Source: Chitinophaga barathri | Lineage (GTDB): Bacteria; Bacteroidota; Bacteroidia; Chitinophagales; Chitinophagaceae | Length of the DNA stretch: 64,000 nucleotides | Direction: 5' to 3' | NCBI RefSeq assembly: GCF_003807585.1 | Contig: NZ_RMBX01000006.1 | Location: forward strand, 248,001-312,000 | In this document: positions 1 through 15,103 of the stretch, one piece after another | How positions within the stretch are numbered: the stretch's first letter is position 1 | Layout of the letters: each line of letters begins with the position of its first letter | Position numbers and translations under genes: made by a program | The notes under the pieces: model-generated | Told to the model about the DNA's origin: nothing | Database searches by the model: none | What the model saw: only the letters and a program-made list of their open reading frames with translations

Positions 1-695
1 TTCCGCAGTACGTGGAAGACGGCGTGGCAGACCTCGGTATCGTAGGTGAAAACGTAGTGCTGGAAAAGAACCGGCCCCTGCGCACCATCGAAAAACTGGG
101 TTTTGGCAAATGCCGTTTGGCCATGGCCGTGCCTAAAGCGATGCAGTACAACTCCATCCGCGACCTCCAGGGCCAGCGCATCGCCACCAGCTATCCCGTG
201 ATCGTAAACGAATTCCTGAAAAAGCTGGACATCCAGGCGGAAATACACGAGATCAGCGGCTCCGTGGAAATTGCCCCCGGCATTGGCCTCGCGGACGCTA
301 TCTGCGACCTGGTGAGCAGCGGTTCCACCCTGTTCATGAACGGGCTGAAGGAAGTGGAAACCGTACTCCGCTCCGAAGCCGTACTGGTGTCCAACGACAA
401 GCTGAGCCCCGAACAGCAGCAGTTGCTGGCCAAACTCCTCTTCCGCATCCAGGCGGTGAAAAAGGCCAAAAACAACAAATATGTACTGCTGAACGCGCCG
501 AACGACAAGCTGCCGGAGATCATCGGGCTGCTGCCGGGCATGAAAAGCCCCACCGTACTGCCTCTCGCGGAAGAAGGCTGGAGCTCCGTGCATTCCGTGC
601 TGAATGAAAACGATTTCTGGGATATCATCGAAAGCCTGAAAGCTGCCGGTGCGCAAGGCATCCTGGTAGTGCCGATCGAGAAAATGGTTGTTTAA
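1..695 (+). CDS. hisG: ATP phosphoribosyltransferase, C-terminal part (HisG)
   Basis: This is the first enzyme of histidine synthesis, which condenses ATP with PRPP. The frame is open from the window edge (first full codon at base 3), so the N-terminus is missing; the GTG at 12 is an internal Val codon. The visible part holds the 'DLGIVGENV' segment, the PRPP-binding stretch 'ISGSVEIAPGIGLADAICD' and a C-terminal ACT-like regulatory domain (about the last 75 residues, ending 'GILVVPIEKMVV'). That makes it the long, histidine-inhibited form that needs no HisZ. It is followed after 11 nt by hisD and is the first visible gene of the his-trp-his series. Identification is secure; only the start is unknown. 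Confidence 0.95.
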   Translation, partial: PQYVEDGVADLGIVGENVVLEKNRPLRTIEKLGFGKCRLAMAVPKAMQYNSIRDLQGQRIATSYPVIVNEFLKKLDIQAEIHEISGSVEIAPGIGLADAICDLVSSGSTLFMNGLKEVETVLRSEAVLVSNDKLSPEQQQLLAKLLFRIQAVKKAKNNKYVLLNAPNDKLPEIIGLLPGMKSPTVLPLAEEGWSSVHSVLNENDFWDIIESLKAAGAQGILVVPIEKMVV

Positions 696-706
696 AACAA
701 AGAACT

Positions 707-1987
707 ATGCAAGTTATCCGTTACCCGGAGAAAAATACATGGGAGGAGCTGCTGAAACGCCCCGCCTTTGACACCCGTGAGCTGGAGGCCACTGTTTCCG
801 CCATTCTCGGTGATGTAAAGGAAAACGGTGATGATGCCCTCCGCCGCTATACCGCACAGTTTGACAAAGTGAGCCTGGACGAGATCTTCGTAACGGCGGA
901 AGAATTTGAAGCAGCGGACGCCGCGCTGGAAGAACCTCTCAAAGACGCCATCCGCACTGCCGCAGCCAATATCGAAATGTTTCACCGCGCGCAGGTGGAA
1001 TCTGTAACCATGCTGGAAACCATGCCCGGCGTACAATGCTGGCGCAAACCGGTAGGTATCGAAAAAGTAGGTTTATATATTCCCGGCGGCACCGCCCCGC
1101 TGTTCTCCACCATCCTGATGCTGGCCATTCCCGCCAGGCTGGCCGGCTGCAGCGAGATAGTACTTTGCACGCCTCCCGGTAAGAACGGCGCCGTGCATCC
1201 CGCTGTACTCTGGGCTGCCCGTTACACCGGTATTACACGGGTGTTTAAGACCGGCGGCGTACAGGCCATCGGCGCCATGGCTTACGGTACGGAAAGCGTG
1301 CCGAAGGTCTACAAGATATTCGGGCCGGGTAATCAATACGTGACCTGCGCAAAACAGCTGGTGAACAGCAATGGCGTGGCGATAGACATGCCCGCCGGAC
1401 CTTCTGAAGTAGCGGTATTTGCAGACGATACCTGTGTGCCGGCCTTTGTGGCGGCGGACCTCCTGTCTCAGGCGGAGCACGGGGCTGATAGCCAGGTGCT
1501 GCTCGTAACCACCTCAGATGCAGTGATCGCGGCTGTGGAAAAAGAAGTGGCAGCACAGCTGGCGCTGCTTCCCCGGAAAGAATTTGCCGCCAAAGCGCTG
1601 GACAACAGCAAGCTGGTGCTGGTAAAAGACCGCGATGAAGCCATGGACATGCTCAACGCCTACGCGCCCGAGCACCTTATCATGGCTTGTGAAAACGATG
1701 AAATACTGGCCACCCGCGTGATCAACGCCGGTTCCGTTTTCCTCGGCAATTATTCCCCGGAAAGCGCGGGCGATTACGCATCCGGTACCAATCACACCCT
1801 GCCCACCAACGGCTACGCCACAGCATACAGCGGTGTGAGCGTGGACAGTTTTGTGAAAAAGATCACCTTCCAGCGGCTCAGCCGCGAAGGCCTGCGGGCG
1901 CTGGCCCCCGCCATCGAAGCCATGGCTTCCGCGGAAGGCCTGGAAGCGCACAGGAACGCAGTTTCAATCAGAATAAAAAACATGTAG
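707..1987 (+). CDS. hisD: Histidinol dehydrogenase (HisD)
   Basis: This zinc- and NAD-dependent enzyme carries out the last two oxidations from L-histidinol to L-histidine. The 426-residue length is normal. Family signatures are visible: 'PAGPSEVAVFADD', 'LLSQAEHGADSQ' with the Gln/His zinc ligands, 'YAPEHLI' with the Glu-His catalytic pair, and 'GDYASGTNHTLPT' near the C-terminus. The ATG at 707 follows hisG by 11 nt, and hisC starts 4 nt after the stop, so cotranscription is likely. Nothing is unusual about the protein. Confidence 0.97.
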   Translation: MQVIRYPEKNTWEELLKRPAFDTRELEATVSAILGDVKENGDDALRRYTAQFDKVSLDEIFVTAEEFEAADAALEEPLKDAIRTAAANIEMFHRAQVESVTMLETMPGVQCWRKPVGIEKVGLYIPGGTAPLFSTILMLAIPARLAGCSEIVLCTPPGKNGAVHPAVLWAARYTGITRVFKTGGVQAIGAMAYGTESVPKVYKIFGPGNQYVTCAKQLVNSNGVAIDMPAGPSEVAVFADDTCVPAFVAADLLSQAEHGADSQVLLVTTSDAVIAAVEKEVAAQLALLPRKEFAAKALDNSKLVLVKDRDEAMDMLNAYAPEHLIMACENDEILATRVINAGSVFLGNYSPESAGDYASGTNHTLPTNGYATAYSGVSVDSFVKKITFQRLSREGLRALAPAIEAMASAEGLEAHRNAVSIRIKNM

Positions 1988-1991
1988 ACAT

Positions 1992-3044
1992 ATGTTCGAC
2001 CTGGAAAGTATTTTAAGGGACAATATCAAAAGACTGGTGCCTTATTCATCCGCCCGCGATGAGTTCAAAGGCGAAGCCTCCGTATACCTGGATGCCAACG
2101 AAAACAGCTTCGGCTCCCCGCTTCCCGCCGCATATCATCGTTACCCCGATCCCCTGCAATGGAAGGTGAAATATCGTCTTGCGGAGATCAAAGGGGTGCC
2201 GCCGCAGAATATTTTTCTCGGCAACGGCAGCGACGAAGCCATCGATATCCTTTACCGCGCCTTCTGCCGCCCGGGCGTGGATAATGTTGTACTGTGCCCA
2301 CCCACCTACGGCATGTACGAAGTAAGCGCAAACATTAATGATGTGACCATTCGCAAAGCCTCTCTCACCCCGGATTTTCAGCTGGACCTGGAGGCGATAG
2401 AAAGCGCGATAGACGAAAACACAAAACTTATCTTCATCTGTTCGCCGAACAACCCCACCGCAAACGCCATCAACCGCGAAGACATCGAAATGGTGCTGAA
2501 CAACTTCGACGGCATCGTGGTGGTAGACGAAGCATATATTAATTTCTCCCGCCAGAAGTCCCTCATCCGGGAACTTACGGAGTACCCGAACCTGGTGATC
2601 CTGCAAACGCTTTCCAAAGCCTGGGGCCTCGCCGCTCTGCGCGTAGGGATGGCTTTTGCCAGCGAAGACATTATCAACGTGTTCAACAAGATCAAGCCGC
2701 CATACAATATCAACCAGGCTTCCCAGGAACTGGCTTTGCAGGCGCTGGACAACATTGAGCAGGTGAACGGCTGGATCAAAGAAACCGTGGAAGAACGCAA
2801 CAAACTCCAGGCCGCGCTCACGGCGCTGCCCATCGTGGAGCTGGTATACCCCAGCGATGCGAACTTTTTGCTGGTAAAAACCGTTGATGCCAAAGGCATC
2901 TACAACAAGCTGGTAGAGCAGGGCATTATCGTGCGGGACCGTTCCAAAGTGGAGCTTTGCGCAGGCTGCCTCCGCATCACCATCGGTACGCCGGAAGAGA
3001 ATATCACATTGCTCAATACTTTAAAATCCATTCCAGCTATATGA
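1992..3044 (+). CDS. hisC: Histidinol-phosphate aminotransferase (HisC)
   Basis: This PLP enzyme of fold type I transfers the amino group from glutamate to imidazole-acetol phosphate. At 350 residues it has the family length. Visible landmarks are 'LDANENSFGSP' at the N-terminus, 'GNGSDEAIDIL', 'SPNNPTANAI', 'VVVDEAYINF' and the Schiff-base lysine in 'QTLSKAWGLAALRVG'. It starts 4 nt after hisD. A 76-nt gap before hisB contains a hairpin-forming element described separately. HisC-type enzymes can also act on aromatic amino acids, but the operon context supports histidine synthesis. Confidence 0.97.
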   Translation: MFDLESILRDNIKRLVPYSSARDEFKGEASVYLDANENSFGSPLPAAYHRYPDPLQWKVKYRLAEIKGVPPQNIFLGNGSDEAIDILYRAFCRPGVDNVVLCPPTYGMYEVSANINDVTIRKASLTPDFQLDLEAIESAIDENTKLIFICSPNNPTANAINREDIEMVLNNFDGIVVVDEAYINFSRQKSLIRELTEYPNLVILQTLSKAWGLAALRVGMAFASEDIINVFNKIKPPYNINQASQELALQALDNIEQVNGWIKETVEERNKLQAALTALPIVELVYPSDANFLLVKTVDAKGIYNKLVEQGIIVRDRSKVELCAGCLRITIGTPEENITLLNTLKSIPAI

Positions 3045-3072
3045 AACCGAGCATAATTAATTTACATCGGGA

Positions 3073-3125
3073 GGATGAACTGCGAGGTTCCATCCGGCCT
3101 ATAAAAAACAACTTGAACGGATGAA
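3073..3125 (+). promoter_or_regulatory. Hairpin element at the hisB start, shared with 43995-44040
   Basis: In the hisC-hisB gap, GGATGAAC (3073-3080) can pair with GTTCCATCC (3087-3095, one bulged C) around a 6-nt loop. The same TTCCATCCG (3088-3096) can instead pair with CGGATGAA (3118-3125), which contains the hisB start codon. The 16 nt at 3081-3096 and the AACGGATGAA 35 nt further on recur almost identically at 43995-44040. The mutually exclusive pairings suggest control of hisB translation or a mobile repeat; function is inferred only. Confidence 0.4.
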
Positions 3126-4254
3126 ACGGGTACTATTCATAGACCGCGACGGCACCATGATCCGCGAAGTGCCGCCCACTTACCAGATAGACAGCCTTGA
3201 AAAGGTGGAGTTTTACCCAAAGGTTTTTACCTACCTCGGGAAGATCGCCGCTGAGCTGGATTACGAGCTGGTATTGGTAAGCAACCAGGATGGCATGGGC
3301 ACGGCTTCTTTCCCGGAAGACACCTTTCACCCGGCGCATAACCACATCATCCGCGCTTTTGCGAACGAAGGCATCGTGTTTGCCCGCGAACATATCGACC
3401 CTACTTTGCCTGCAGACAATGCGCCCACCCGCAAACCCGGCATCGGTATGCTGAAACAGTACTTTACCCCGGAATACGACCTGGTCAACTCCTTTGTGAT
3501 CGGCGACCGTATCACGGACGTGAAGCTGGCCCAGAACCTGGGCGCCAGGGCCATCTGGCTGAACGAAGGCACCGGCCTGGGCGCCGCTGAAGTAAGGGGA
3601 GACGAAAGCCTGAAAGACGTGATCGCACTGGAAACGACCGACTGGGCAAAGATCTACGAATTCCTTAAAATAGGTCTGCGCAAGGTAAGCCATACCCGTA
3701 CCACCAAGGAAACAGACATTCACATCGAACTGAACCTGGACGGCAAAGGCCAGGCGGATATCCACACCGGGCTTGCTTTTTTTGACCATATGCTGGACCA
3801 GATCGCCCGCCACGGCAGCATAGACCTGACTATCCGCGCCAAAGGCGACCTGCATATAGACGAGCACCATACCATCGAAGACACCGGTATTGCGCTGGGA
3901 GAAGCCTTTGCAATGGGCCTTGCGGACAAAAAGGGCATGGAACGCTACGGCTTCTGCCTGCCTATGGACGACTGCCTGGCCCAGGCGGCTATCGACTTTG
4001 GCGGCCGGAACTGGATCGTATGGGATGCGGAATTCAAACGGGAGAAGGTAGGGGATATGCCCACGGAGATGTTCTTCCATTTCTTCAAATCCTTCTCGGA
4101 CGCCGCTAAATGTAACCTGAATATCAAGGCGGAAGGGGAGAATGAACATCACAAGATAGAAGCGATCTTCAAGGCTTTCGCCAAGGCGATCAAGATGGCC
4201 GTGAAGCGGAACCCGGACAATATGCAGCTTCCCAGCACCAAAGGCGTACTGTAA
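3121..4254 (+). CDS. hisB: Bifunctional histidinol-phosphatase / imidazoleglycerol-phosphate dehydratase (HisB)
   Basis: The protein has two domains. Residues 1 to about 165 form a HAD-type histidinol-phosphate phosphatase with the nucleophile motif 'DRDGT', and residues about 185 to 377 form IGP dehydratase with '[16 protein letters not shown]' and a second '[14 protein letters not shown]' metal-binding segment. The reactions are steps 7 and 9 of histidine synthesis. The 377-residue length fits the fused enterobacterial-type HisB. In the HAD domain the loop that carries the Cys/His zinc ligands in the E. coli enzyme reads '[16 protein letters not shown]' here and has no cysteine. The start codon lies inside a possible hairpin. 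Confidence 0.96.
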
Positions 4255-4270
4255 GATGGATAAAATAAAA

Positions 4271-4302
4271 TTTGCATTTTCGGATAAAACCCTGCATATT
4301 TG
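4271..4302 (+). promoter_or_regulatory. Candidate internal promoter of the trp block
   Basis: TTTG (4271-4274), 20 nt, then CATATTTG (4295-4302) matches the Bacteroidota sigma-70 pattern TTTG-N(about 20)-TAnnTTTG with one mismatch. Transcription would begin near 4308, just ahead of the leader peptide at 4311, which is where an attenuator-controlled transcript should start. No terminator is seen between hisB and this site, so read-through from the his genes is also possible. Confidence 0.5.
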
Positions 4303-4310
4303 CCCTCATA

Positions 4311-4370
4311 ATGCAAATGAACAACACATACAAACTTTGGTGGCACGCAGGCAATTTCTCCGCTGTGTAG
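4311..4370 (+). CDS. trpL: trp operon leader peptide with tandem Trp codons
   Basis: This short reading frame encodes MQMNNTYKLWWHAGNFSAV. The two adjacent tryptophan codons are at 4338-4343 and the stop is at 4368-4370; a second ATG at 4317 is an alternative start. The Trp codons lie at the left edge of the first hairpin (4341-4346 with 4373-4378), and the end of the frame overlaps the antiterminator strand. This is the arrangement known for leader-peptide attenuators such as E. coli trpL. A ribosome stalled at 4338-4343 would block the first hairpin and leave 4360-4369 free to pair downstream. The leader was read directly from the sequence; the mechanism is inferred from the geometry. Confidence 0.85.
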   Translation: MQMNNTYKLWWHAGNFSAV

Positions 4371-4423
4371 CAGTGCCATGTTTGTATTGAACATACTAAA
4401 AGAAGGCTCGCTGTACACAGCGG
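4360..4423 (+). promoter_or_regulatory. trp attenuator: antiterminator stem
   Basis: CCGCTGTGTA (4360-4369) is perfectly complementary over 10 bp to TACACAGCGG (4414-4423). This pairing excludes the terminator stem, which uses 4418-4431. It also competes with the upstream hairpin TGGCAC (4341-4346)/GTGCCA (4373-4378), which encloses the 4360-4369 strand. The three exclusive pairings give the standard 1:2, 2:3, 3:4 attenuator layout. Confidence 0.8.
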
Positions 4424-4436
4424 GCCTTCTTCGTTT
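4400..4436 (+). terminator. trp attenuator: intrinsic terminator
   Basis: A 14-bp stem forms between 4400-4413 and 4418-4431 with the 4-nt loop TACA and a single G-U pair. It is followed by CGTTTT. It lies 45 nt upstream of trpE. It should form when the leader peptide is fully translated, that is, when charged tRNA-Trp is plentiful. Confidence 0.85.
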
Positions 4437-4481
4437 TCAGCCGGTACCGTACCGGGATAGAACAAAAGTCAAACGGTATAT

Positions 4482-5891
4482 ATGAAGTTAATTCAGGTAA
4501 AAACAAAGTCCAAAAAGATGCTTGCTGACGTGTTCACCCCCGTCAGCATCTACCTCCGCATCCGCGACAAATTCCCGGGCTCCATCCTCCTGGAAAGCAC
4601 GGATTCCAACGCCAGCGAAAACAGTTGGTCCTTTATCGGGATCAAGCCCATCGCCGGTATTGAAGTGACCTCCACGGACATCTTTGAGTTCAAATACCCC
4701 GGCCAGCCCGTAGAGCACAAGCAGCTCGCCGGCAAAGCCGCCGTGCTCAAAGAAATGGACGCTTTCCTGAAAAGTTTCGTGTTCACCGAAAAATCCCCCA
4801 TTCCTTTCGGCGAAGGCCTCTACGGCTACAGTACCTACGATTCCGTGCAGTTCTTCGAAAAGATCAGCTTCAAAAAACGCCCGGCCGCGGGGAACACCAT
4901 CCCCCTGATGCGTTACCGTTTTTACCAGTACGTGATCGCCATCAACCACTTCAAGGATGACATGTACCTCATCGAAAACCAGGTGGATGGCCAGGAAAGT
5001 GAATTCGAGTTCGTGGAATCCCTCATCCGCAACAAGGATTTTCCGATGTACTCCTTTACCGGTAAAGGAGAAGAACAAACCAATATGACGGACGATGAAT
5101 ACATGCAGATGGTGGAAAAAGGCAAACAGCACTGTTTCCGTGGCGATGTATTCCAGATCGTACTGTCCCGCTCTTTCCACAGGGAGTTCAACGGCGATGA
5201 GTTCAACGTTTACCGCGCCCTCCGCTCCATCAATCCATCCCCTTATCTCTTTTATTTCGATTACGGCGATTACAAACTGATGGGCTCATCGCCTGAAGCG
5301 CAGCTTATCATCAAAGACCGTAAAGCCGTGATACACCCTATCGCGGGCACTTTCAAGCGCACCGGCAACGACGAGCAGGACAAACTCCTGGCCGACCAGC
5401 TGCTGGAAGACCCGAAAGAAAACGCGGAGCATGTGATGCTGGTGGATCTTGCGCGCAACGACCTGAGCCGTTACGCCAAAGACGTGGAAGTGGAAACTTA
5501 CCGCCAGATCAAATATTACTCCCACGTGATCCACCTCGTAAGCGAAGTGACCGGCCAGCTGGAACCGAACAGCAGTCCGTTTGATATACTGGCGGCCACT
5601 TTTCCGGCAGGCACTCTGTCCGGCGCGCCCAAATACAAAGCGATGGAACTGATCGATTCCTACGAGCCTACCGCCCGTGGATTCTACGGCGGCTGTGTGG
5701 GGTTTGTGGGTTTCAACGGTGACTTCAACCACGCAATTATGATCCGCTCCATCCTCAGTAAAAACAATACGCTGTATTACCAGGCAGGCGCGGGCGTGGT
5801 AGCGAAATCCGTTGCCAGCTCGGAATTACAGGAAGTGAACAATAAACTCAATGCATTAAAACAGGCCATTATCCTGGCGCAAAATATCTAG
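4482..5891 (+). CDS. trpE: Anthranilate synthase component I (TrpE)
   Basis: This subunit converts chorismate plus ammonia to anthranilate, the committed step of tryptophan synthesis. The 469-residue length is normal. The N-terminal 'LLES' motif of the tryptophan feedback site is present ('ILLESTDSNASENSW'), as are the chorismate-binding signatures 'DLARNDLSRYA' and 'TFPAGTLSGAPKYKAMELID'. It follows the trp attenuator, and its stop is 1 nt before the trpG start, which suggests translational coupling to the glutaminase subunit. PabB is a possible confusion, but the LLES motif and the trp operon context argue for TrpE. Confidence 0.97.
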   Translation: MKLIQVKTKSKKMLADVFTPVSIYLRIRDKFPGSILLESTDSNASENSWSFIGIKPIAGIEVTSTDIFEFKYPGQPVEHKQLAGKAAVLKEMDAFLKSFVFTEKSPIPFGEGLYGYSTYDSVQFFEKISFKKRPAAGNTIPLMRYRFYQYVIAINHFKDDMYLIENQVDGQESEFEFVESLIRNKDFPMYSFTGKGEEQTNMTDDEYMQMVEKGKQHCFRGDVFQIVLSRSFHREFNGDEFNVYRALRSINPSPYLFYFDYGDYKLMGSSPEAQLIIKDRKAVIHPIAGTFKRTGNDEQDKLLADQLLEDPKENAEHVMLVDLARNDLSRYAKDVEVETYRQIKYYSHVIHLVSEVTGQLEPNSSPFDILAATFPAGTLSGAPKYKAMELIDSYEPTARGFYGGCVGFVGFNGDFNHAIMIRSILSKNNTLYYQAGAGVVAKSVASSELQEVNNKLNALKQAIILAQNI

Positions 5892-5892
5892 T

Positions 5893-6462
5893 ATGAACAT
5901 CCTGGTATTTGATAATTACGATTCGTTCACCTACAACCTCGTGCACCTCGTCGAGAAGATCATCGGCGGAAAAGTGACCGTGGTAAGGAATGACGAGATC
6001 AAACTGGAAGATGTGGATCAATACGACCGGATCATTCTTTCCCCCGGCCCCGGTATACCCGAGGAAGCAGGCCTGCTGCTCCCCCTGATCAAACAATACG
6101 CCCCCACCAAACCGATATTCGGTGTATGTCTTGGCCAGCAGGCCATCGGAGAGGCCTTTGGTGCCAAACTTACCAATCTCACCGATGTGTATCATGGCGT
6201 AGCCACTCCCGTAAACATCATCTCCCGCAGCGGCCGGCTGTTCAGCAACCTGCCCGATGAGCTGGAAGTAGGCCGTTACCACTCCTGGGTGGTGGACGAG
6301 TCCACGCTGCCCGCGGAGCTGGAGATCACCGCCCGTGACGGGCATGGTTACATCATGGCATTGCAGCACCGTAAATACGACGTCTGCGGCGTGCAGTTCC
6401 ACCCGGAAAGCGTGCTCACGCCACAGGGAGAACAAATCCTGCGCAACTGGTTAGGGCTGTAA
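5893..6462 (+). CDS. trpG: Anthranilate synthase glutaminase subunit (TrpG)
   Basis: This class I glutamine amidotransferase supplies ammonia to TrpE. It has 189 residues. The nucleophile elbow 'GVCLGQQAIGEAFG' and the His/Glu of the triad in 'VQFHPESVLTPQG' are visible, and the N-terminus 'ILVFDNYDSFTYNLVH' is typical. It is a free-standing subunit, not fused to TrpD, and starts 1 nt after trpE. It may also serve PabB in folate synthesis, as in many bacteria, but nothing in the window tests that. Confidence 0.96.
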   Translation: MNILVFDNYDSFTYNLVHLVEKIIGGKVTVVRNDEIKLEDVDQYDRIILSPGPGIPEEAGLLLPLIKQYAPTKPIFGVCLGQQAIGEAFGAKLTNLTDVYHGVATPVNIISRSGRLFSNLPDELEVGRYHSWVVDESTLPAELEITARDGHGYIMALQHRKYDVCGVQFHPESVLTPQGEQILRNWLGL

Positions 6463-6480
6463 AACAATAAACAAAGCACA

Positions 6481-7470
6481 ATGAAAAAGATACTCAACTA
6501 TCTGTTCGAACATAAAACATTCAGCCGCGAAAACGCGAAGGAGATACTGACCAACATTTCCAAAGGCGTGTACAACGAAAGCGAGCTGGCCGCCTTCATG
6601 ACGGTGTTCCTCATGCGCAGCATCACCATCGAAGAGCTGCTGGGCTTCCGGGATGCGCTGCTGGAGCTTTGCGTACCGGTGAAGCTGGAAGATAACGTGC
6701 TGGATATTGTAGGCACCGGTGGTGATGGTAAAAACACCTTTAACATCTCCACGCTCAGCTGCTTCCTGGTGGCGGGCGCGGGCGGTAAGGTGGCTAAACA
6801 TGGTAACTATGGCGTGTCCTCCATCAGCGGTGCTTCCAATGTGATGGAAAACCTGGGGTATAAGTTTAAGAACGATGAAGGCAAGCTGAAACAGGAAATG
6901 GCCGAAGCCGGCATCTGTTTCCTGCACGCCCCGCTGTTTCACCCCGCGCTGAAAAACGTAGCTCCTGTACGCCGCCAGCTGGGTGTGCGCACGTTCTTTA
7001 ACATGCTTGGGCCGCTCGTAAACCCCGCGTTTGCACAGCACCAGCTGATAGGCGTATACAGCCTCGAAATGGCGCGTATCTACAACTATCTTTTCCAGCA
7101 GACGGACAAACGGTATGCTATCGTGCACAGCCTGGACGGTTATGACGAGATCTCTCTCACCGGCGATACCCGCATTATTACGAACAAAGGCGAGCAGGAC
7201 TGGACGCCCGAAGCCCTTGGCAAAAGAAAAGTACATGCGGAAGATATTTTCGGCGGCAACACCACCGAAGACGCGGCCAGGATCTTCCTCAAAGTGCTGA
7301 AAGGTGAAGGCAGCTGGGCGCAGCATTCCGTGGTAATGGCAAACGCCGCCATGGGATTGTATTGCCTCGAAAAATACCCGACTTACGATGAATGTTTCCA
7401 GGCGGCTGTAGAATCGCTGGAATCAGGCGCGGCATATAAAGTATTCCAAAAACTCATTTCCTTACAATAA
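6481..7470 (+). CDS. trpD: Anthranilate phosphoribosyltransferase (TrpD)
   Basis: This enzyme transfers phosphoribose from PRPP to anthranilate. It has 329 residues. The glycine-rich PRPP/magnesium motif 'GTGGDGKNTFNIST' and 'KHGNYGVSSISGASNVMENLG' are conserved. It lies 18 nt downstream of trpG and 7 nt upstream of trpC. No unusual feature was seen. Confidence 0.97.
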   Translation: MKKILNYLFEHKTFSRENAKEILTNISKGVYNESELAAFMTVFLMRSITIEELLGFRDALLELCVPVKLEDNVLDIVGTGGDGKNTFNISTLSCFLVAGAGGKVAKHGNYGVSSISGASNVMENLGYKFKNDEGKLKQEMAEAGICFLHAPLFHPALKNVAPVRRQLGVRTFFNMLGPLVNPAFAQHQLIGVYSLEMARIYNYLFQQTDKRYAIVHSLDGYDEISLTGDTRIITNKGEQDWTPEALGKRKVHAEDIFGGNTTEDAARIFLKVLKGEGSWAQHSVVMANAAMGLYCLEKYPTYDECFQAAVESLESGAAYKVFQKLISLQ

Positions 7471-7477
7471 TACCGTT

Positions 7478-8269
7478 ATGAAAAACATCCTGGCAGAAAT
7501 CACCGCGCACAAAGCCGTGGAAGTAGCGGAAAGACAGAAAGTACGTCCCGCGCAGGAACTGGAAAACACTTCCATGTTCAGCCGAACGCCGCTTTCGCTC
7601 CGCAGCTTCCTCAAACAACCCGGGCGCAACGGTATTATTGCGGAATTCAAACGCCAAAGTCCCTCCAAAGGCATCATCAACGATACGGCGGATGTACAGG
7701 ACGTAACCACCACCTACGCCCGCCACGGCGCATCCGGCCTGAGCATTTTAACGGACCAGAACTATTTCGGCGGCTCCATGGATGACCTGCAAATGGCACG
7801 GGCGGTGAACATCATCCCCATCCTGCGCAAAGATTTTGTGATCGGCGAATACCAGATACTGGAAGCCAAAGCCATCGGCGCGGATGTGATCCTGCTGATA
7901 GCGGAGTGCCTTACCAAAGAGGAAATAAAACACCTTGCGGAGTTTGCGCACAACCTGGGCCTGGAAGTACTGCTGGAAGTGCATACCGCTGATCAGTTGG
8001 ACAAGATCAGCCCGCACACGCATCTCATCGGTATCAATAACCGTGACCTGAAAACCTTCCAGGTGGACATTTACCGCTCCATGGAACTGCTCAAACAAAT
8101 ACCCGCTGAATACAGCAAGGTGGCCGAAAGCGGCATGGATGACCCTGCTACGATCGTGACCCTGCGCAACGCGGGATTTGACGGTTTCCTGATCGGGGAG
8201 CATTTTATGAAAGCGGAAAACCCCGGCGCCGCATTTGAATCATTCACCCAAAAACTCGCGTCGTTATGA
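7478..8269 (+). CDS. trpC: Indole-3-glycerol phosphate synthase (TrpC)
   Basis: This (beta/alpha)8-barrel enzyme closes the indole ring with loss of CO2. It has 263 residues, the single-domain form not fused to TrpF. Catalytic landmarks are 'FKRQSPSKG' (Lys), 'ILRKDF', 'EVLLEVH' and 'IGINNRDLKTF'. Its last 4 nt overlap the trpF start (ATGA), indicating translational coupling. Confidence 0.97.
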   Translation: MKNILAEITAHKAVEVAERQKVRPAQELENTSMFSRTPLSLRSFLKQPGRNGIIAEFKRQSPSKGIINDTADVQDVTTTYARHGASGLSILTDQNYFGGSMDDLQMARAVNIIPILRKDFVIGEYQILEAKAIGADVILLIAECLTKEEIKHLAEFAHNLGLEVLLEVHTADQLDKISPHTHLIGINNRDLKTFQVDIYRSMELLKQIPAEYSKVAESGMDDPATIVTLRNAGFDGFLIGEHFMKAENPGAAFESFTQKLASL

Positions 8270-8889
8270 AGATAAAAGTCTGCGGCATTACCCGGAAAGA
8301 AGACCTGGACGCACTGGTACAGCTGGGCGCGGACTATGCGGGTTTTATCTTCTACGGCAAATCTCCCCGGTTTGCCGGCAACAAGCTGGACGGGCGTACC
8401 GTGCGCGAAATAGCCGGGAGGATCGGGAAGGTGGGCGTGTTTGTAAACGCCGATCCGCAGCAGGTGATCCAGACCGTAAAGGATTACGGGCTGGACATGA
8501 TCCAGCTCCATGGCGATGAATCCATTGCCGTATGCCAGCAGCTGCGCCTCACCGTTCCGGTGATGAAGGTGTTCCCGATGGGAGAGAAGGCTAATGCAGT
8601 GGATTACGCAGCCCCTTTTATGGCGGTATCCGACTTTTTCCTGTTTGATACAGCCAGTAAGGAATACGGCGGCACGGGCAGGCAGTTCAACTGGGAGCTT
8701 TTAAATGACTACAGCTACGACAAACCCTTTTTCCTCAGCGGCGGCATTGGCCCTGATGATACCGAAGCCGTGCTGCGATGGCGCCACAAACAGCTGTTTG
8801 CGCTGGATGTGAACAGCAGGTTCGAAACCGCTCCCGGCGTAAAGGATATGGATAAAGTAGCGGCATTCATCAACACGATAAAAAAATAA
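8266..8889 (+). CDS. trpF: Phosphoribosylanthranilate isomerase (TrpF)
   Basis: This barrel enzyme performs the Amadori rearrangement of phosphoribosylanthranilate, the same chemistry HisA performs on its substrate. It has 207 residues. The catalytic Cys is in 'KVCGIT' and the catalytic Asp in 'FLFDTASKEYGGTG'; 'FLSGGIGPDD' is the phosphate-binding loop. The start overlaps the trpC stop by 4 nt, and trpB follows after 6 nt. A separate hisA is present in the same series, so there is no sign of a shared PriA-type isomerase. Confidence 0.96.
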   Translation: MKIKVCGITRKEDLDALVQLGADYAGFIFYGKSPRFAGNKLDGRTVREIAGRIGKVGVFVNADPQQVIQTVKDYGLDMIQLHGDESIAVCQQLRLTVPVMKVFPMGEKANAVDYAAPFMAVSDFFLFDTASKEYGGTGRQFNWELLNDYSYDKPFFLSGGIGPDDTEAVLRWRHKQLFALDVNSRFETAPGVKDMDKVAAFINTIKK

Positions 8890-8895
8890 CGAATC

Positions 8896-10101
8896 ATGGA
8901 TATAGCGGTGAATACATCACAATCCAAATATCATGTCAATAAAAAGGGCTACTACGGCGATTTCGGCGGCGCATACATCCCCGAAATGCTGTATCCCAAC
9001 GTGGAGGAGCTGAAAGAGCAGTATATGCAGATCATCTCCGACCCCGCGTTTCAGCAGGAATTTGAACAACTGCTGAAAGACTACGTAGGCCGGCCTTCTC
9101 CGTTGTACTTCGCAAAACGTTTGTCTGAAAAGTACAAAGCGAAGATCTACCTCAAACGCGAAGACCTCAATCACACCGGCGCCCATAAGGTGAACAATAC
9201 CATCGGGCAGATACTGCTGGCCAAACGGCTTGGCAAAAAACGCATCATCGCGGAAACAGGCGCGGGCCAGCATGGCGTGGCCACGGCCACCGTCTGCGCC
9301 CTGATGGGCCTGGAATGCGTGGTGTATATGGGCAGTGTGGACATCCAGCGGCAGGCGCCCAACGTGGCCCGTATGCGCATGCTCGGGGCTACCGTAGTGC
9401 CTGCCACCAGCGGCAGTAAAACGCTGAAGGACGCCACCAACGAAGCCATCCGCGACTGGATCAACAACCCGGTGGATACGCATTACATCATCGGCTCGGT
9501 AGTAGGCCCGCACCCGTATCCCGATATGGTGGCGCGTTTCCAGTCCGTGATCAGCGAAGAGATCAGGCAGCAGCTGGTGGAAAAGACCGGCAAACCCGAT
9601 CCCGATTATGTGATAGCCTGTGTAGGCGGCGGCAGCAATGCAGCCGGCGCATTTTTCCACTTCACCGATGCGGAGAAGGTAAAACTGGTAGCCGTGGAAG
9701 CGGCAGGGCAGGGCGTGAACAGCGGTTTTTCCGCCGCCACCAGCCAGCTGGGCAGGCCCGGTATCATCCACGCCAGCAAAACGCTGCTGATGCAGACGGA
9801 TGACGGGCAGATCGTGGAGCCGCACTCTATTTCCGCGGGGCTTGATTATCCCGGCGTAGGGCCCATGCACGCGAACCTCTACACCACCGGCCGCGCGCTG
9901 TTCCTCAATGCGACAGACGACGAATCGCTGGCCGCGGGTTATGAGCTAAGCCTGCTGGAAGGCATCATTCCCGCGCTGGAATCGGCCCATGCGCTGGCTA
10001 AACTGAAAGACCTGTCGCTGAAGCCCGAAGACGTGGTGGTGGTATGCCTCAGCGGCCGGGGGGACAAAGACCTGGAAACCTATATCAAACACTTAAAGTA
10101 A
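8896..10101 (+). CDS. trpB: Tryptophan synthase beta subunit (TrpB)
   Basis: This PLP enzyme condenses indole with serine. It has 401 residues and is the standard TrpB1 type that pairs with TrpA. The Schiff-base lysine is in '[13 protein letters not shown]', the phosphate-binding loop is '[10 protein letters not shown]', and the N-terminus shows '[12 protein letters not shown]'. It lies 6 nt after trpF and 6 nt before trpA. Confidence 0.97.
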
Positions 10102-10107
10102 AAGAGC

Positions 10108-10890
10108 ATGAACAGGATTGATCAACTCTTTCAAAATAAACCGAAAGACATTCTGAATGTATACTGCACAGCTGGTTACCCTTCGCTGAACGATACCGTG
10201 ACCATCGTGGAAGCCCTGGAACAGAGCGGTGCGGACATGGTGGAGCTGGGTATGCCCTTCTCCGACCCCCTGGCGGACGGCCCGGTGATACAGGAAAGCA
10301 GCACCCGCGCCATCAAAAACGGCATGCGCATCAGCGTACTGTTCGAACAGCTGAAAGGCCTGCGGGACAAGGTGTCCCTGCCCATCATCCTCATGGGGTA
10401 CATGAATCCCGTGATGCAGTTCGGGGTGGAGAACTTCCTCCGGAAATGCGCCGAAACCGGCGTAGACGGCCTCATATTGCCTGATCTGCCGATGGACGAA
10501 TACGAATCGGAATACAAGGGCCTGTTTGAAAAATACGGCCTGCACAACATCTTCCTCGTAACGCCCGAAACCAGCGAAGCGCGCATCCGTAAGATAGACG
10601 GGGTGAGCAACGGTTTTGTATATGCCGTGTCTTCCTCTTCCACCACGGGTAAAAATAAGGAGATGGGCGACCAGGAGGTGTACTTCCAGCGGCTGAAGGC
10701 CATGAACCTCCGCAACCCCATCCTGATAGGCTTTGGTATACGGGACAACAAAACCTTCCGGGAAGCCTGCCGCCACAGCAACGGGGCAATTATCGGCAGC
10801 GCTTTTGTAAAAGCCATCGAAAACAGTGCTAACTTGCAGGCTACCGTGAAAGAATTTGTGGCAGGCATCAAGACAAATATGAACAGATGA
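10108..10890 (+). CDS. trpA: Tryptophan synthase alpha subunit (TrpA)
   Basis: This subunit cleaves indole-3-glycerol phosphate and channels indole to TrpB. It has 260 residues. The catalytic Glu and Asp sit in 'ELGMPFSDPLADGPVIQ', and the phosphate-binding loops are 'VSSSSTTG' and 'GFGIRDNKT'. The stop overlaps the hisH ATG by 4 nt (10887-10890). The last trp gene is therefore physically and probably translationally coupled to the distal his genes. Confidence 0.97.
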   Translation: MNRIDQLFQNKPKDILNVYCTAGYPSLNDTVTIVEALEQSGADMVELGMPFSDPLADGPVIQESSTRAIKNGMRISVLFEQLKGLRDKVSLPIILMGYMNPVMQFGVENFLRKCAETGVDGLILPDLPMDEYESEYKGLFEKYGLHNIFLVTPETSEARIRKIDGVSNGFVYAVSSSSTTGKNKEMGDQEVYFQRLKAMNLRNPILIGFGIRDNKTFREACRHSNGAIIGSAFVKAIENSANLQATVKEFVAGIKTNMNR

Positions 10891-11480
10891 AAACAGCGAT
10901 CCTAAAATACAACGCCGGCAATACCCGCTCCGTATTGTTCGCCCTCGAAAGACTGGGGGTGGAAGCTACGGTAACGGACGATCCGGAAGAGCTGAAAGCC
11001 GCGGATAAGGTGATATTTCCCGGTGTGGGAGAAGCCAGCACCGCCATGGCTTACCTGCGCGAACGCAAGCTGGATACATTGATCAAAGACCTGAAACAGC
11101 CGGTGCTGGGCATTTGCCTGGGCATGCAGCTGCTTTGCAAACATTCTGAAGAAAACAATACGGATTGCATCGGCGTGTTTGACCTGGAAGTGAAGAAGTT
11201 CCAGAGCCCGGTAGAGAACCTGCTGAAGATCCCGCAGATCGGCTGGAACAATATCACCGGCCTGCACAGTGTGATCTTTGAACATGTGAACCAGAATGAC
11301 TACATGTATTTTGTGCACAGTTATTTCGCGGAGCTGGGCTCGGAGACCACGGCTATCGCCAATTACGTGATCAATTACAGCGCGGCATTGCAGAAAGACA
11401 ATTTCTACGCAGTGCAGTTTCACCCGGAAAAGTCTGCGGAAGCAGGCCAGAACATCATCGAGAGTTTTTTACGACTGTGA
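10887..11480 (+). CDS. hisH: Imidazole glycerol phosphate synthase glutaminase subunit (HisH)
   Basis: This glutaminase supplies ammonia to HisF. It has 197 residues. The nucleophile is in 'GICLGMQLLCKHSE' and the His/Glu pair in 'AVQFHPEKS'; 'FPGVGEA' is also conserved. Its ATG overlaps the trpA stop, and its own TGA overlaps the GTG start of the GNAT-hisA gene. Because it follows trpA, its transcription probably depends on the trp promoter and attenuator unless an unseen internal promoter exists. Confidence 0.96.
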   Translation: MKTAILKYNAGNTRSVLFALERLGVEATVTDDPEELKAADKVIFPGVGEASTAMAYLRERKLDTLIKDLKQPVLGICLGMQLLCKHSEENNTDCIGVFDLEVKKFQSPVENLLKIPQIGWNNITGLHSVIFEHVNQNDYMYFVHSYFAELGSETTAIANYVINYSAALQKDNFYAVQFHPEKSAEAGQNIIESFLRL

Positions 11481-12622
11481 GCATACAAATCAGGAATATA
11501 ACCACAGCAGACACTTTGCAGCTGCGCAGGGACGTAATGTACCCCACCTGGTCGCTGGACCAGGTGACGCTGCCGCACGATGCGGACGGCATTCATTTCG
11601 GACTTTATTCAGATGGGCGGCTGGCTACCGTGGTATCTCTTTTTATCGAAGGCGATTCCGCGCAGTTCCGCAAGCTGGCCACCGCACATGACCAGCAGGG
11701 CAAAGGGTTTGGTAAATTGATGATGCGGCACCTCGAAGAGGTTTGCCGGCAGCGCGGCATCGGCACACTCTGGTGCAATGCCCGGGAAACCGCCCTCAGC
11801 TTTTATCAGCAACTGGGCTTCACCGTTTTCAGCGAACGCTTTTTTAAAGACGATCTTCCTTTCTTCAAAATGAAAATACCCGTAAAACCAGCCCAGGCAA
11901 AAGGTTTCACCATCATTCCCGCCATAGACATTATCGGCGGGAAATGCGTGCGCCTCACCCAGGGCGACTACGCTCAGCAAAAAGTATACAACGAAAACCC
12001 GCTGGAAGTAGCGATGGAATTCGAAGACAGCGGCATCCAGCGACTGCATCTCGTGGACCTGGACGGCGCTAAAAAAGGAGCCGTGGTGAACTGGAAAGTA
12101 CTGGAAACCATTGCCGCTAAGACCGGCCTCACCATTGATTTTGGCGGCGGTATCAAAAGCGGGGACGATCTGAAGATCGTATTCGAATCCGGCGCGGAAC
12201 TTGCCACCATCGGCAGCGTGGCCGTCAAACAGCCGGAGTTGTTCTTCAGCTGGCTGGATCAATACGGCGCTGATAAAATGTTCCTCGGTGCAGACGTAAA
12301 AGAAGAAATGATCGCGGTGGGCGGATGGCTGGAAACCACGGACCGCAGTGTGTTCGACTTCCTGCGTACCAACCTGGAGCGCGGCGTAAAAGAAGTATTC
12401 TGTACGGATATCGCGAAGGACGGGCTGTTGCAGGGCCCCTCCACGGAGCTGTATAAAAAGATCATCGCGGAGCTGCCCGGCATCCGGCTCACCGCGAGCG
12501 GCGGTGTAAGCCACATCGGTGATGTGGAAGAATTGCAGGCCGCAGGCCTGGCCGGCGTCATCATCGGTAAAGCCATTTATGAAGGCCGTATTACATTACC
12601 CGAACTGAAGAAATTTATTTAA
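11477..12622 (+). CDS. hisA: GNAT acetyltransferase-HisA fusion protein
   Basis: This is a single frame of 381 residues from a GTG that overlaps the hisH stop by 4 nt. Residues 1 to about 133 form a GNAT N-acyltransferase domain with the acetyl-CoA loop 'QGKGFGKLMM' and the C-terminal 'ARETALSFYQQLGF'. Residues about 143 to 381 form a complete HisA barrel (ProFAR isomerase) with the catalytic Asp in 'IPAIDIIGGKCVRL' and 'CTDIAKDG', and the 'TASGGVSHIGDV' phosphate loop. An ATG near 11870 ('KMKIPV') could allow separate translation of HisA, but there is no stop between the domains. The substrate of the GNAT domain is unknown. Confidence 0.9.
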   Translation: MSIQIRNITTADTLQLRRDVMYPTWSLDQVTLPHDADGIHFGLYSDGRLATVVSLFIEGDSAQFRKLATAHDQQGKGFGKLMMRHLEEVCRQRGIGTLWCNARETALSFYQQLGFTVFSERFFKDDLPFFKMKIPVKPAQAKGFTIIPAIDIIGGKCVRLTQGDYAQQKVYNENPLEVAMEFEDSGIQRLHLVDLDGAKKGAVVNWKVLETIAAKTGLTIDFGGGIKSGDDLKIVFESGAELATIGSVAVKQPELFFSWLDQYGADKMFLGADVKEEMIAVGGWLETTDRSVFDFLRTNLERGVKEVFCTDIAKDGLLQGPSTELYKKIIAELPGIRLTASGGVSHIGDVEELQAAGLAGVIIGKAIYEGRITLPELKKFI

Positions 12623-12625
12623 GAT

Positions 12626-13381
12626 ATGCTTACAAAACGCATCATACCCTGCCTGGATATCAAGGACGGACGCACCGTGAAGGGCGTGAACTTCGAGAAT
12701 ATCCGCGATGCGGGAGACCCTATCGAGCTGGGCGCGCTGTATGCGGAACAGGGCGCGGATGAACTGGTATTCCTGGACATCACGGCCACGAATGAAAGGA
12801 GAAAAACCCTTTCCGAACTGGTGACCAAAATAGCCCGGCATGTGAACATCCCGTTCACCGTGGGCGGTGGCATTTCTTCCGTGGAAGACGTGAGCGTGCT
12901 GCTGAACGCCGGTGCGGACAAAGTATCCGTAAACACCGCCGCGTTCAAAAATCCGCAGCTGCTCAACGACCTTTCCCGCGAATTCGGCAGCCAATGCATC
13001 GTACTGGCCATCGATACGCGTTTTGAAGACGGCGACTGGTTCGTATACCTCAACGGCGGCCGCGTAAAAACCGACATCCTTACCACGGACTGGGCCAAAG
13101 AAGCCGTGGACCGCGGCGCGGGAGAGATCCTGCTCACGTCCATGAACAACGACGGCACCAAGCAGGGTTTTGCCCTGGATATCACCGGGCGCCTTTCCCA
13201 AAACCTGCATGTGCCGGTGATCGCTTCGGGCGGGGCAGGTACTATGGAGCACTTTGCGGACGTTTTTGAGAAGGCCGGGGCGGATGCGGCACTGGCTGCG
13301 AGCATCTTCCACTATAAAGAAATGGAAATTCAGGAGCTGAAAACATACCTCTACAAAAGAGGTGTGCAGATCCGCTTCTGA
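12626..13381 (+). CDS. hisF: Imidazole glycerol phosphate synthase cyclase subunit (HisF)
   Basis: This barrel enzyme uses ammonia from HisH to form imidazole glycerol phosphate and AICAR. It has 251 residues. The first catalytic Asp is in '[17 protein letters not shown]' and the second in '[11 protein letters not shown]'; the phosphate loops are 'VGGGISS' and '[11 protein letters not shown]'. It starts 3 nt after the GNAT-hisA gene. Confidence 0.97.
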
Positions 13382-13418
13382 TTAATATATATTTATTATA
13401 TTTAAAGTGATTTTACCC

Positions 13419-14015
13419 ATGGAGGTAGATTTTACCAAGTCACCGGACGGATTGGTGCCGGCAATTATTCAGGATGCCATTAGCCACCGCGTGCTGATGC
13501 TGGGGTACATGAACAGGGAAGCCCTGGACAAAACCCTGGCCGAGAAACGGGTGACGTTCTTCAGCCGTTCCAGGAACCGGCTGTGGACCAAGGGGGAGGA
13601 AAGCGGCAATTTCCTTAACCTGGTGAGCGCCGCACTGGACTGCGACCAGGATACGCTGCTGCTGAAAGTGCATCCCGTAGGCCCCGTATGCCACACCGGC
13701 GCGGATACCTGCTGGAACGAAAAAAACAAAGACACGGCTTCTTTCCTCACCGGCCTGGAACAGGTGATCCGCGACAGGAAAGAAAACCCGACCGAAAAGT
13801 CATACACCGCTTCCCTGTTTGCCAAAGGCATCAACAAGGTGGCGCAAAAGGTAGGCGAAGAAGCTGTTGAACTCGTGATAGAAGCCAAAGACGACAATAA
13901 AGACCTGTTTTTAGGCGAAGCGGCGGACCTGTTGTTTCATTACTTAATTTTGTTACAGGCCAAGGGCTTTACGCTCGAAGATGTCATAACCATATTAAAA
14001 GAACGGCACAAATGA
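13419..14015 (+). CDS. hisI: Phosphoribosyl-AMP cyclohydrolase / phosphoribosyl-ATP pyrophosphatase (HisIE)
   Basis: This bifunctional enzyme carries out steps 2 and 3 of histidine synthesis. The N-terminal half is HisI with 'DGLVPAIIQD', 'FFSRSRNRLWTKGEESGN' and the zinc motif 'VGPVCHTGADTCW'. The C-terminal half is HisE with 'KVGEEAVELVIEAK' and 'EAADLLFHYLILL'. I prefer the ATG at 13419; the frame also allows a GTG at 13407, which would add four residues. An AT-rich 37-nt gap separates it from hisF. The stop overlaps the next gene's ATG by 4 nt. Confidence 0.95.
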   Translation: MEVDFTKSPDGLVPAIIQDAISHRVLMLGYMNREALDKTLAEKRVTFFSRSRNRLWTKGEESGNFLNLVSAALDCDQDTLLLKVHPVGPVCHTGADTCWNEKNKDTASFLTGLEQVIRDRKENPTEKSYTASLFAKGINKVAQKVGEEAVELVIEAKDDNKDLFLGEAADLLFHYLILLQAKGFTLEDVITILKERHK

Positions 14016-15103
14016 GAACCGTATCCATCCTCTTTTCCATTTTAACGGCTGCCACAGCGGCAAACGCCCAGTTTACAGTAAGCGGCAGCATCGCGCCGGC
14101 CCAGGAAGGGCAGAAGCTTTATTTTGTCAGCGAAGACGGCAATACAAGGGATTCTTCCGTACTGAAGGACGGCCGGTTTTCGTTTAAGACGGCTTATAAA
14201 CCCGCTCCGGACGATATGTTTGCACTGATACTCGAAGGCAAACAATACCCGATGCTGCTGGTGTCTGAAAACAACGAAGTGGAAATACAGGGTGATGCGG
14301 GCAGTTTTCCCGTGGCCAAAACCGTGAAAGGCGGCCAGCAGACCGAGTGGATGCAGGCTTATCACAAGACCATGGAGCCGGTACTGAATAAAGTAAAAGA
14401 ACTGAACTCAGAAGCCTCTGTCATCAGCGGTGACGATGAAGCCGCCAAAGCCGCGTTCCGCGCAAAAGCGACCGATTTTGAAACGGAGCTGATGAATACA
14501 GGGATGAACTTCGTGAAAACCCACCCCAAAGCCCAGGCCAGCCTTTTTCTGCTGTACGGCGAGCTGAAGGACAGGCTGACCGAAGATGAATTCAGCAGGC
14601 AGTTCGGCTCACTGGATGTAAAAGTCAGGAACAGCAAATTCGGCAGGTCGATTGCCGCTGAGATATCTTCCGCCAATGCTGAAAAGGCCGATGCGGGCAC
14701 GGCCAAAGACTTTGAACAGAAAGACCCCAAAGGCAAAACGGTAAAACTGTCCTCTTTCCGGGGCAAATACGTGCTGATCGACTTCTGGGCCAGCTGGTGC
14801 GGCCCCTGCCGGCAGGAGAACCCCAACGTAGTGGCGGCTTATCACAAATTCAAAAACAAAAACTTCACCATCCTTGGTGTATCGCTGGATAAAAGTAAAT
14901 CCGCCTGGCTGGAAGCTATCGAGCAGGACCGCCTGGAATGGACCCAGGTGTCCGACCTCCAGGGCTGGGCAAATGCCGCGGCGCAACTGTACCGTGTGCA
15001 GGGTATCCCGCAGAACTTCCTGGTAGATCCCAACGGTAAGATCATTGCCAGCAACCTCCGCGGCCGCGCCCTGGAAAAGAAGCTGGCGGAAATACTGAAG
15101 TAA
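14012..15103 (+). CDS. DUF4369/TlpA-like thiol-disulfide oxidoreductase
   Basis: The 363-residue protein has an N-terminal signal peptide ending 'ANAQ', a beta-rich DUF4369-type domain (about residues 22-120), a helical middle and a C-terminal TlpA/thioredoxin domain with the active site 'WASWCGPCRQENP' at about residue 260. It should act in the periplasm, with the CxxC reducing or rearranging disulfides of envelope proteins. The ATG overlaps the hisIE stop by 4 nt, so it may be translated from the his message, although no link to histidine synthesis is apparent. The next gene is a paralogue. Confidence 0.85.
   Translation: MRTVSILFSILTAATAANAQFTVSGSIAPAQEGQKLYFVSEDGNTRDSSVLKDGRFSFKTAYKPAPDDMFALILEGKQYPMLLVSENNEVEIQGDAGSFPVAKTVKGGQQTEWMQAYHKTMEPVLNKVKELNSEASVISGDDEAAKAAFRAKATDFETELMNTGMNFVKTHPKAQASLFLLYGELKDRLTEDEFSRQFGSLDVKVRNSKFGRSIAAEISSANAEKADAGTAKDFEQKDPKGKTVKLSSFRGKYVLIDFWASWCGPCRQENPNVVAAYHKFKNKNFTILGVSLDKSKSAWLEAIEQDRLEWTQVSDLQGWANAAAQLYRVQGIPQNFLVDPNGKIIASNLRGRALEKKLAEILK

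Follow-up and report, generated by a model that had tools for sequence, protein, structure and literature searches.

In the trpL leader of E. coli, the partner of strand 2 is the 5' arm of the terminator, and the known multi-amino-acid attenuators (thr, ilvGMEDA) contain leader codons for several of the amino acids that their operon serves. The latter attenuators belong to branched or shared pathways, whereas at the locus described here a single leader, containing only one His codon, precedes the genes of two separate pathways. In E. coli trpL, a stall on the Arg codon 12 is reported to also prevent the I:II hairpin and attenuation (PMC1183508). Among the Bacteroidota, the Bacteroid-trp RNA (Rfam RF01692) was listed by Weinberg 2010 (PMC2864571) and is placed before the trp operon of F. 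psychrophilum (PMC6414381), and signs of leader peptides before amino-acid operons have been reported (PMC9723704). Moreover, trp genes inserted into the his operon are described for two species, in an account that gives no expression data where it treats them (PMC8305728). Among the matches listed in full-text searches, with most subscription journals outside their coverage, none dealt with a leader for both Trp and His in Bacteroidota.

Here, we analysed a window of 64,000 nucleotides from the 6.86-Mb genome of Chitinophaga barathri. Positions 4311-4437 of this window very probably represent a ribosome-mediated leader-peptide Trp transcription attenuator. Like E. coli trpL, it has two Trp codons at positions 10 and 11, a codon 12 within the control region, a 1:2 stem, an antiterminator, and a terminator. 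In contrast to trpL, its antiterminator strand additionally takes up the terminator loop and 3' arm, and the leader RNA is probably near-leaderless. In the latter respect and in Trp attenuation it resembles the leaderless trpL mRNA (rnTrpL) of Sinorhizobium meliloti, which however belongs to another phylum and is described before trpE(G) alone, with no his genes in that description (PMC7298713).

Rfam searches over the window at gathering scores gave no match. The RF01692 model scored the leader at 20.1 bits (4297-4412; cut-off 49) and RF00513 (Trp_leader) at 21.8 bits (cut-off 41), which leaves the leader outside both families. RF01692 matched none of 117 genomes of the same bacterial family and 29 of 296 genomes of the phylum; 27 of these 29 belong to one family, and 27 exceed the cut-off. 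In 20 RF01692 loci that were read, the leader peptide contains WWW (WW in one), trpE is the next gene, and a terminator follows. In one of them (L163) the strand over the stop codon pairs, by eye, with the terminator loop and 3' arm (GUCGUGA/UCACGAC). The codon after the Trp run differs from the window leader in that it is not His in any of the 20. An earlier sequence-only reading of the window had regarded such a geometry as known mainly from Proteobacteria, and this view has to be corrected, as Rfam already contains comparable trp leaders from Bacteroidota (RF01692, as listed in PMC2864571). The idea that an antiterminator reaching into the loop and 3' arm is unique to the genus was also dropped, because L163 has a like geometry. 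Thus, the kind of attenuator is already known; what is new is the trpEGDCFBA-hisHAFIE layout, the separate leader of hisG, and a His codon that tracks the linkage of hisH.

Leader architecture and gene setting

The leader sits between hisB, which ends at 4254, and trpE (Table 1). The stop codon of trpA and the start codon of hisH overlap by 4 nt, so that trpEGDCFBA runs into hisHAFIE. Four of the trp genes and three of the his genes fit Pfam domains, and trpD, trpC, trpF, and hisF were named by order and translation only. The hisA frame (11477-12622) also bears an N-terminal GNAT acetyltransferase domain (Pfam). The gene hisG lies outside the window behind its own His leader, MNNNVHTHHHHTYPTGRQGML* (HTHHHH), and a terminator (L262, G000:C25:246500-248030). 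This second attenuator of the same cluster, located approximately 500 nt before the window start, also has a promoter-like box. A His-rich leader was found 5' of hisG in 29 of 30 loci fetched from the 90 family genomes with hisG; the remaining locus was cut. A 48-nt unit is repeated in tandem (3.9 copies, 78% matches) at L262:1159-1345, between hisG and the terminator of its His leader.

Table 1. Features of the trp leader and of the genes behind it (window positions)
Feature	Position	Strand	Details and basis
Sigma-A type Bacteroidota promoter	4271..4302	+	TTTG 4271-4274, N20, CATATTTG 4295-4302; then 8 nt to the ATG
Predicted transcription start	4307	+	Predicted 5' UTR of ~4 nt, near-leaderless; from the F. 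psychrophilum sigma-A box position (PMC9723704)
Leader peptide ORF	4311..4370	+	MQMNNTYKLWWHAGNFSAV*; ATG 4311, 19 sense codons, stop TAG 4368-4370; kept in relatives
Control Trp codons 10 and 11	4338..4343	+	WW in 82/86 family upstreams
His codon 12, proposed second control codon	4344..4346	+	hisH-linkage statistics; precedent of E. coli trpL codon 12 (Arg; PMC1183508)
1:2 stem, strand 1	4328..4346	+	Segments 4328-4335 and 4341-4346 (TGGCAC); covariation
1:2 stem, strand 2	4373..4387	+	Segments 4373-4378 (GTGCCA, pairs with 4341-4346) and 4380-4387 (8 bp with 4328-4335); covariation
Antiterminator, leader strand	4360..4375	+	Core CCGCTGTGTA 4360-4369; bulge G4370; extension 4371-4375; overlaps stop codon and 1:2 strand 2
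Antiterminator, target	4409..4423	+	Top of terminator 5' arm, loop, top of 3' arm; core TACACAGCGG 4414-4423 (10/10 paired); extension 4409-4413 (5 bp, one U-G)
Intrinsic terminator	4400..4437	+	AAGAAGGCTCGCTG 4400-4413 / CAGCGGGCCTTCTT 4418-4431, then CGTTTT; 14 pairs, one U-G; covariation
trpEGDCFBA, regulated genes	4482..10890	+	ORFs; trpE, trpG, trpB, trpA fit Pfam domains
hisH, hisA, hisF, hisIE	10887..14015	+	3' of trpA; ORFs; hisH, hisA, hisIE fit Pfam domains

The coordinates of the frame, the Trp codons, the three pairings, the terminator, and the promoter spacing given in the sequence-only reading were all confirmed base for base. Its stem lengths were right for the pairs that it named, but the antiterminator (15 bp in total) and the 1:2 stem (with its second 8-bp segment) extend further. 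That account made no mention of the His codon, of the downstream his genes, or of the His leader before hisG. According to the coordinates the antiterminator overlaps both the 1:2 stem and the terminator and is mutually exclusive with them. Among 3000 dinucleotide shuffles of 4311-4440, none contained all three observed match lengths together and none had a hairpin as long as the terminator (14), while a 1:2 match as long as the observed one (8) arose in 56 and an antiterminator-like match of at least 10 in 9. The predicted RNA fold of 4301-4440 has a z score of -3.7, and 0 of 200 shuffles were equally stable. A GC-rich palindrome, GCCGGTACCGTACCGGG, is located directly 3' of the terminator (4440-4456); similar ones were seen by eye near the matching place in L003 and L088.

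The promoter is the sole plus-strand match to TTTG-N17..23-YAnnTTTG within positions 1-15000 of the window. A scan for sigma-70 promoters and terminators returned no useful site; the sigma-70 type is inapplicable here and the T-run rule misses the CGTTTT terminator. In F. psychrophilum, the sigma-A box is reported to span -12 to -5, and leaderless mRNAs make up only 5.5% of the total (PMC9723704). Transferred to the window, this position suggests that the leader RNA starts near 4307 and is probably near-leaderless.

Conservation and covariation of the leader

Of 117 genomes searched, which were drawn from a larger family, 86 matched TrpE at 1e-130 or better, in one case as two separate pieces. 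All 86 upstream regions were read over 450 nt each, two being shortened by contig ends. A short WW or WWW frame precedes trpE in 82 of them, compared with 80 of 1720 dinucleotide-shuffled family upstreams (4.7%). The exceptions, with no WW frame within 450 nt, are L034, L039, L082, and L070, the last of which has a single Trp. Within the genus (79 genomes searched, 78 with trpE), reading of the sequences by eye identified WW or WWW in 70 leaders and WRW in the other eight. The tandem Trp codons are thus conserved in relatives, as the attenuator reading had predicted. In L112, L118, L135, L136, L151, L153, L155, and L157, WRW (TGG CGT TGG) replaces WWW, which places an Arg codon in the control region. 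Outside the family, a W.?W frame was found in 38 of 39 upstreams under laxer rules and without a shuffle control. These 39 (37 of them members of the same order and class, two of family f47, and none with a distant TrpE type) are part of the 205 phylum genomes with a TrpE match, a number that includes the family. Leader-peptide attenuation looks like a usual trp control in this Bacteroidota class, well beyond the reach of the Rfam model, if the sequence patterns are taken at face value.

The other elements are conserved to differing degrees. A terminator was found by rule in 77 of the 82 family leaders (not in five). In 67 of these 77, the leader strand paired best with the 5' arm of the terminator, in nine with the 3' arm, and in one with neither; four of the nine 3'-arm leaders belong to the clade of the window. 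Among 81 leaders that begin with ATG, the box [TC]AnnTTTG ends 4-9 nt upstream of this codon in 56 (at exactly 7 nt in 31 of them), lies further off in six, and is absent in 19.

The element follows hisB, and transcripts from hisG would reach it. Hence it could in principle be a plain terminator of the upstream hisGDCB genes, combined with a promoter and a short frame that arose by chance, without any attenuation. The hisB end, recognised by a C-terminal motif, is indeed found upstream in 61 of 78 genus genomes. However, this motif is upstream in only 11 of the 86 family genomes, yet the leader is kept in 82. Furthermore, the promoter precedes the terminator, and the Trp codons, the 1:2 stem, and the antiterminator are all kept in relatives. 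A plain his terminator is thus extremely unlikely.

Covariation was assessed in an alignment of 34 leaders, comprising 31 of the 70 distinct ones of the genus and three from outside it. Two-sided changes that preserve pairing were counted in 25 cells of the terminator and in 22 cells of the 1:2 stem, and 0 of 500 shuffles reached either value; the counts of pair types for these two stems were not above shuffles in the same alignment. The antiterminator is paired in 88.6% of the cells but showed no covariation above shuffles among the 34 leaders, with three two-sided cells and 355 of 500 shuffles as high. These three cells lie in the loop, in rows L006/L007 and L018, which are all from outside the genus. 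Compensatory changes had been anticipated in all three stems; they are present in the terminator and the 1:2 stem and not in the antiterminator.

Support for the antiterminator comes from the family scale, where the leader strand mostly holds a GGGG and has the terminator 5' arm as its partner. For 72 leaders from other clades than that of the window, own terminators (5' arm and loop) paired better with the leader strand than swapped ones (-13.92 versus -12.26 kcal/mol; 0/5000). The advantage persisted with GGGG only (61 leaders, 3/5000), and a control with reversed leaders gave 480/5000. Pairing with the loop and 3' arm was not better for own than for swapped terminators in the same 72 leaders (532/5000). 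In line with the sequence-only reading, the antiterminator is therefore kept in relatives, both by pairing frequency and by the preference for the own terminator 5' arm.

Relative to the peptide, the GGGG of the antiterminator strand lies in each of the three frames (in 40, 15, and six leaders, respectively) and is absent in 16 of 77, which suggests that the RNA rather than the peptide is under selection. This argues against a conserved peptide and speaks against the view that the leader RNA or its peptide acts mainly in trans, like rnTrpL and peTrpL of S. meliloti. The probable near-leaderless small RNA with a peptide frame would fit such a role (PMC7298713), but we consider it very unlikely as the main function.

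Folding order and proposed mechanism

Tandem Trp codons in a short frame before the operon, a terminator ahead of the first structural gene, and an antiterminator that excludes a 1:2 stem together form the arrangement of a ribosome-stalling attenuator. The 1:2 stem covaries, and the antiterminator is backed by the family-scale swaps. The sequence-only proposal of such an attenuator has thus gained support from the tandem Trp codons, the covariation of the terminator and the 1:2 stem, and the swap results.

In the proposed mechanism, the polymerase would start approximately 4 nt 5' of the leader ATG, and a ribosome would load on the near-leaderless RNA. If charged tRNA-Trp is scarce, the ribosome would stall at W10-W11 and cover strand 1 of the 1:2 stem, leaving 4360-4375 free. 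This strand could then capture 4409-4423, the loop and the upper part of both terminator arms, as this segment emerges and while the base of the terminator (4424-4431) is still inside the polymerase. The antiterminator, once formed, would permit read-through into trpEGDCFBA and hisHAFIE. Without translation, the 1:2 stem would hide 4360-4375 and the terminator would form. When Trp is plentiful, the terminator would also form. In either case transcription would stop in vivo, yielding a leader RNA that ends near 4437. A stall at His codon 12 may act alike and would add a response to His shortage.

Folding calculations, in which the bases covered by the ribosome were removed and the edge of the cover was assumed to lie 10 nt past the A-site codon, reproduced this order in part. 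With a stall at W10, W11, or H12, the antiterminator pairs reached a mean probability of 0.89 at 3' ends 4423-4426. When the ribosome was placed at the stop codon or left out, the terminator reached 0.64 at 3' end 4426, which is the maximum attainable from the 9 of 14 pairs then exposed. Once the whole terminator is out (3' ends 4431-4437), it wins at equilibrium in every state, with 0.96-0.98 even if the ribosome is stalled. Thus, the switch must be kinetic and act while the terminator base is still within the polymerase. Counting against the model, the antiterminator is favoured without a ribosome at 3' end 4423 (0.87), and the kinetic argument must override this preference.

The His codon and linkage to his genes

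As would be expected of a dual attenuator, the control region contains a His codon, and this codon is associated with downstream his genes. In family genomes where hisH follows trpE within 13 kb and on the same strand, the Trp run is succeeded by His in 47 and by another residue in three; the corresponding numbers for the other genomes are ten and nine (Fisher 2.2e-4; 17 of the 86 genomes were set aside for contig ends, no hisH, or no leader). Compared with genomes that have an intact his operon, defined by hisH within 7 kb after hisG, His is found in 47 of 50 hisH-linked versus 9 of 19 intact genomes (Fisher 4.9e-5; 17 genomes set aside). In 28 of 52 linked genomes, hisG is elsewhere or on another contig. 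In the family, the codon after the Trp run is CAT in 55 and CAC in 11 of the 66 His cases, and otherwise CAA (7) or CAG (4) for Gln and CTT (5) for Leu. Gln or Leu replaces His mostly where hisH is unlinked.

The association persisted on a TrpE tree of 66 of the 69 rows (G059, G102, and G104 excluded). A Pagel-type test of His against hisH linkage gave a likelihood ratio of 14.8 (p 0.005; 0/60 bootstraps). Omission of a three-row WWL clade yielded p 0.039 (1/40), and omission of this clade together with five further same-genus rows p 0.036 (0/40). An independent-pairs test found two and four supported pairs, which are too few. Outside the family, three genomes with linked hisH (G457, G265, G299) have His, whereas Ser is found in G380, where the distance is 15 kb. 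WWH occurs in G442, whose hisH is located directly upstream, and in none of the other seven f5 rows read. With hisH elsewhere, His is present in six genomes and not in 22, and it occurs in three of five genomes without a hisH match.

Since the trp genes and hisHAFIE lie behind a common terminator, dual sensing of Trp and His suggests itself. We tentatively regard the leader as a two-input sensor, in which W10-W11 would read Trp and H12 might read His, on the grounds of the genome comparison and the E. coli precedent. It is equally conceivable that the attenuator responds to Trp only, with the His codon being left over as a relic or retained because it pairs in the 1:2 stem. In most aligned genus rows CAC 4344-4346 pairs with GTG 4373-4375, and CAC is used in 69 of the 70 WW/WWW leaders of the genus. 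A response to Trp only would also be consistent with the single His codon of the leader, and with its presence in nine of the 19 intact family genomes and in the six outside-family genomes with hisH elsewhere. However, the dependence of His on hisH linkage, on the tree as well, argues against this explanation, as does the occurrence of both His codons across the family with Gln or Leu replacements concentrated where hisH is unlinked. In addition, a stall at codon 12 folds like one at codon 10 or 11.

A near-leaderless start, if real, would bear on the coupling of translation and transcription in Bacteroidota, where start signals are reported to be unlike Shine-Dalgarno sequences (PMC9723704). 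If the two-input sensor is true, a his operon split such that its second half lies behind the trp genes would have its His signal carried by the trp leader. In genomes whose intact his operon is controlled by a separate His leader, the position following the Trp codons would be free to become Gln or Leu. The locus would then represent a case where the layout of an operon and a single sensor codon seem to evolve together.
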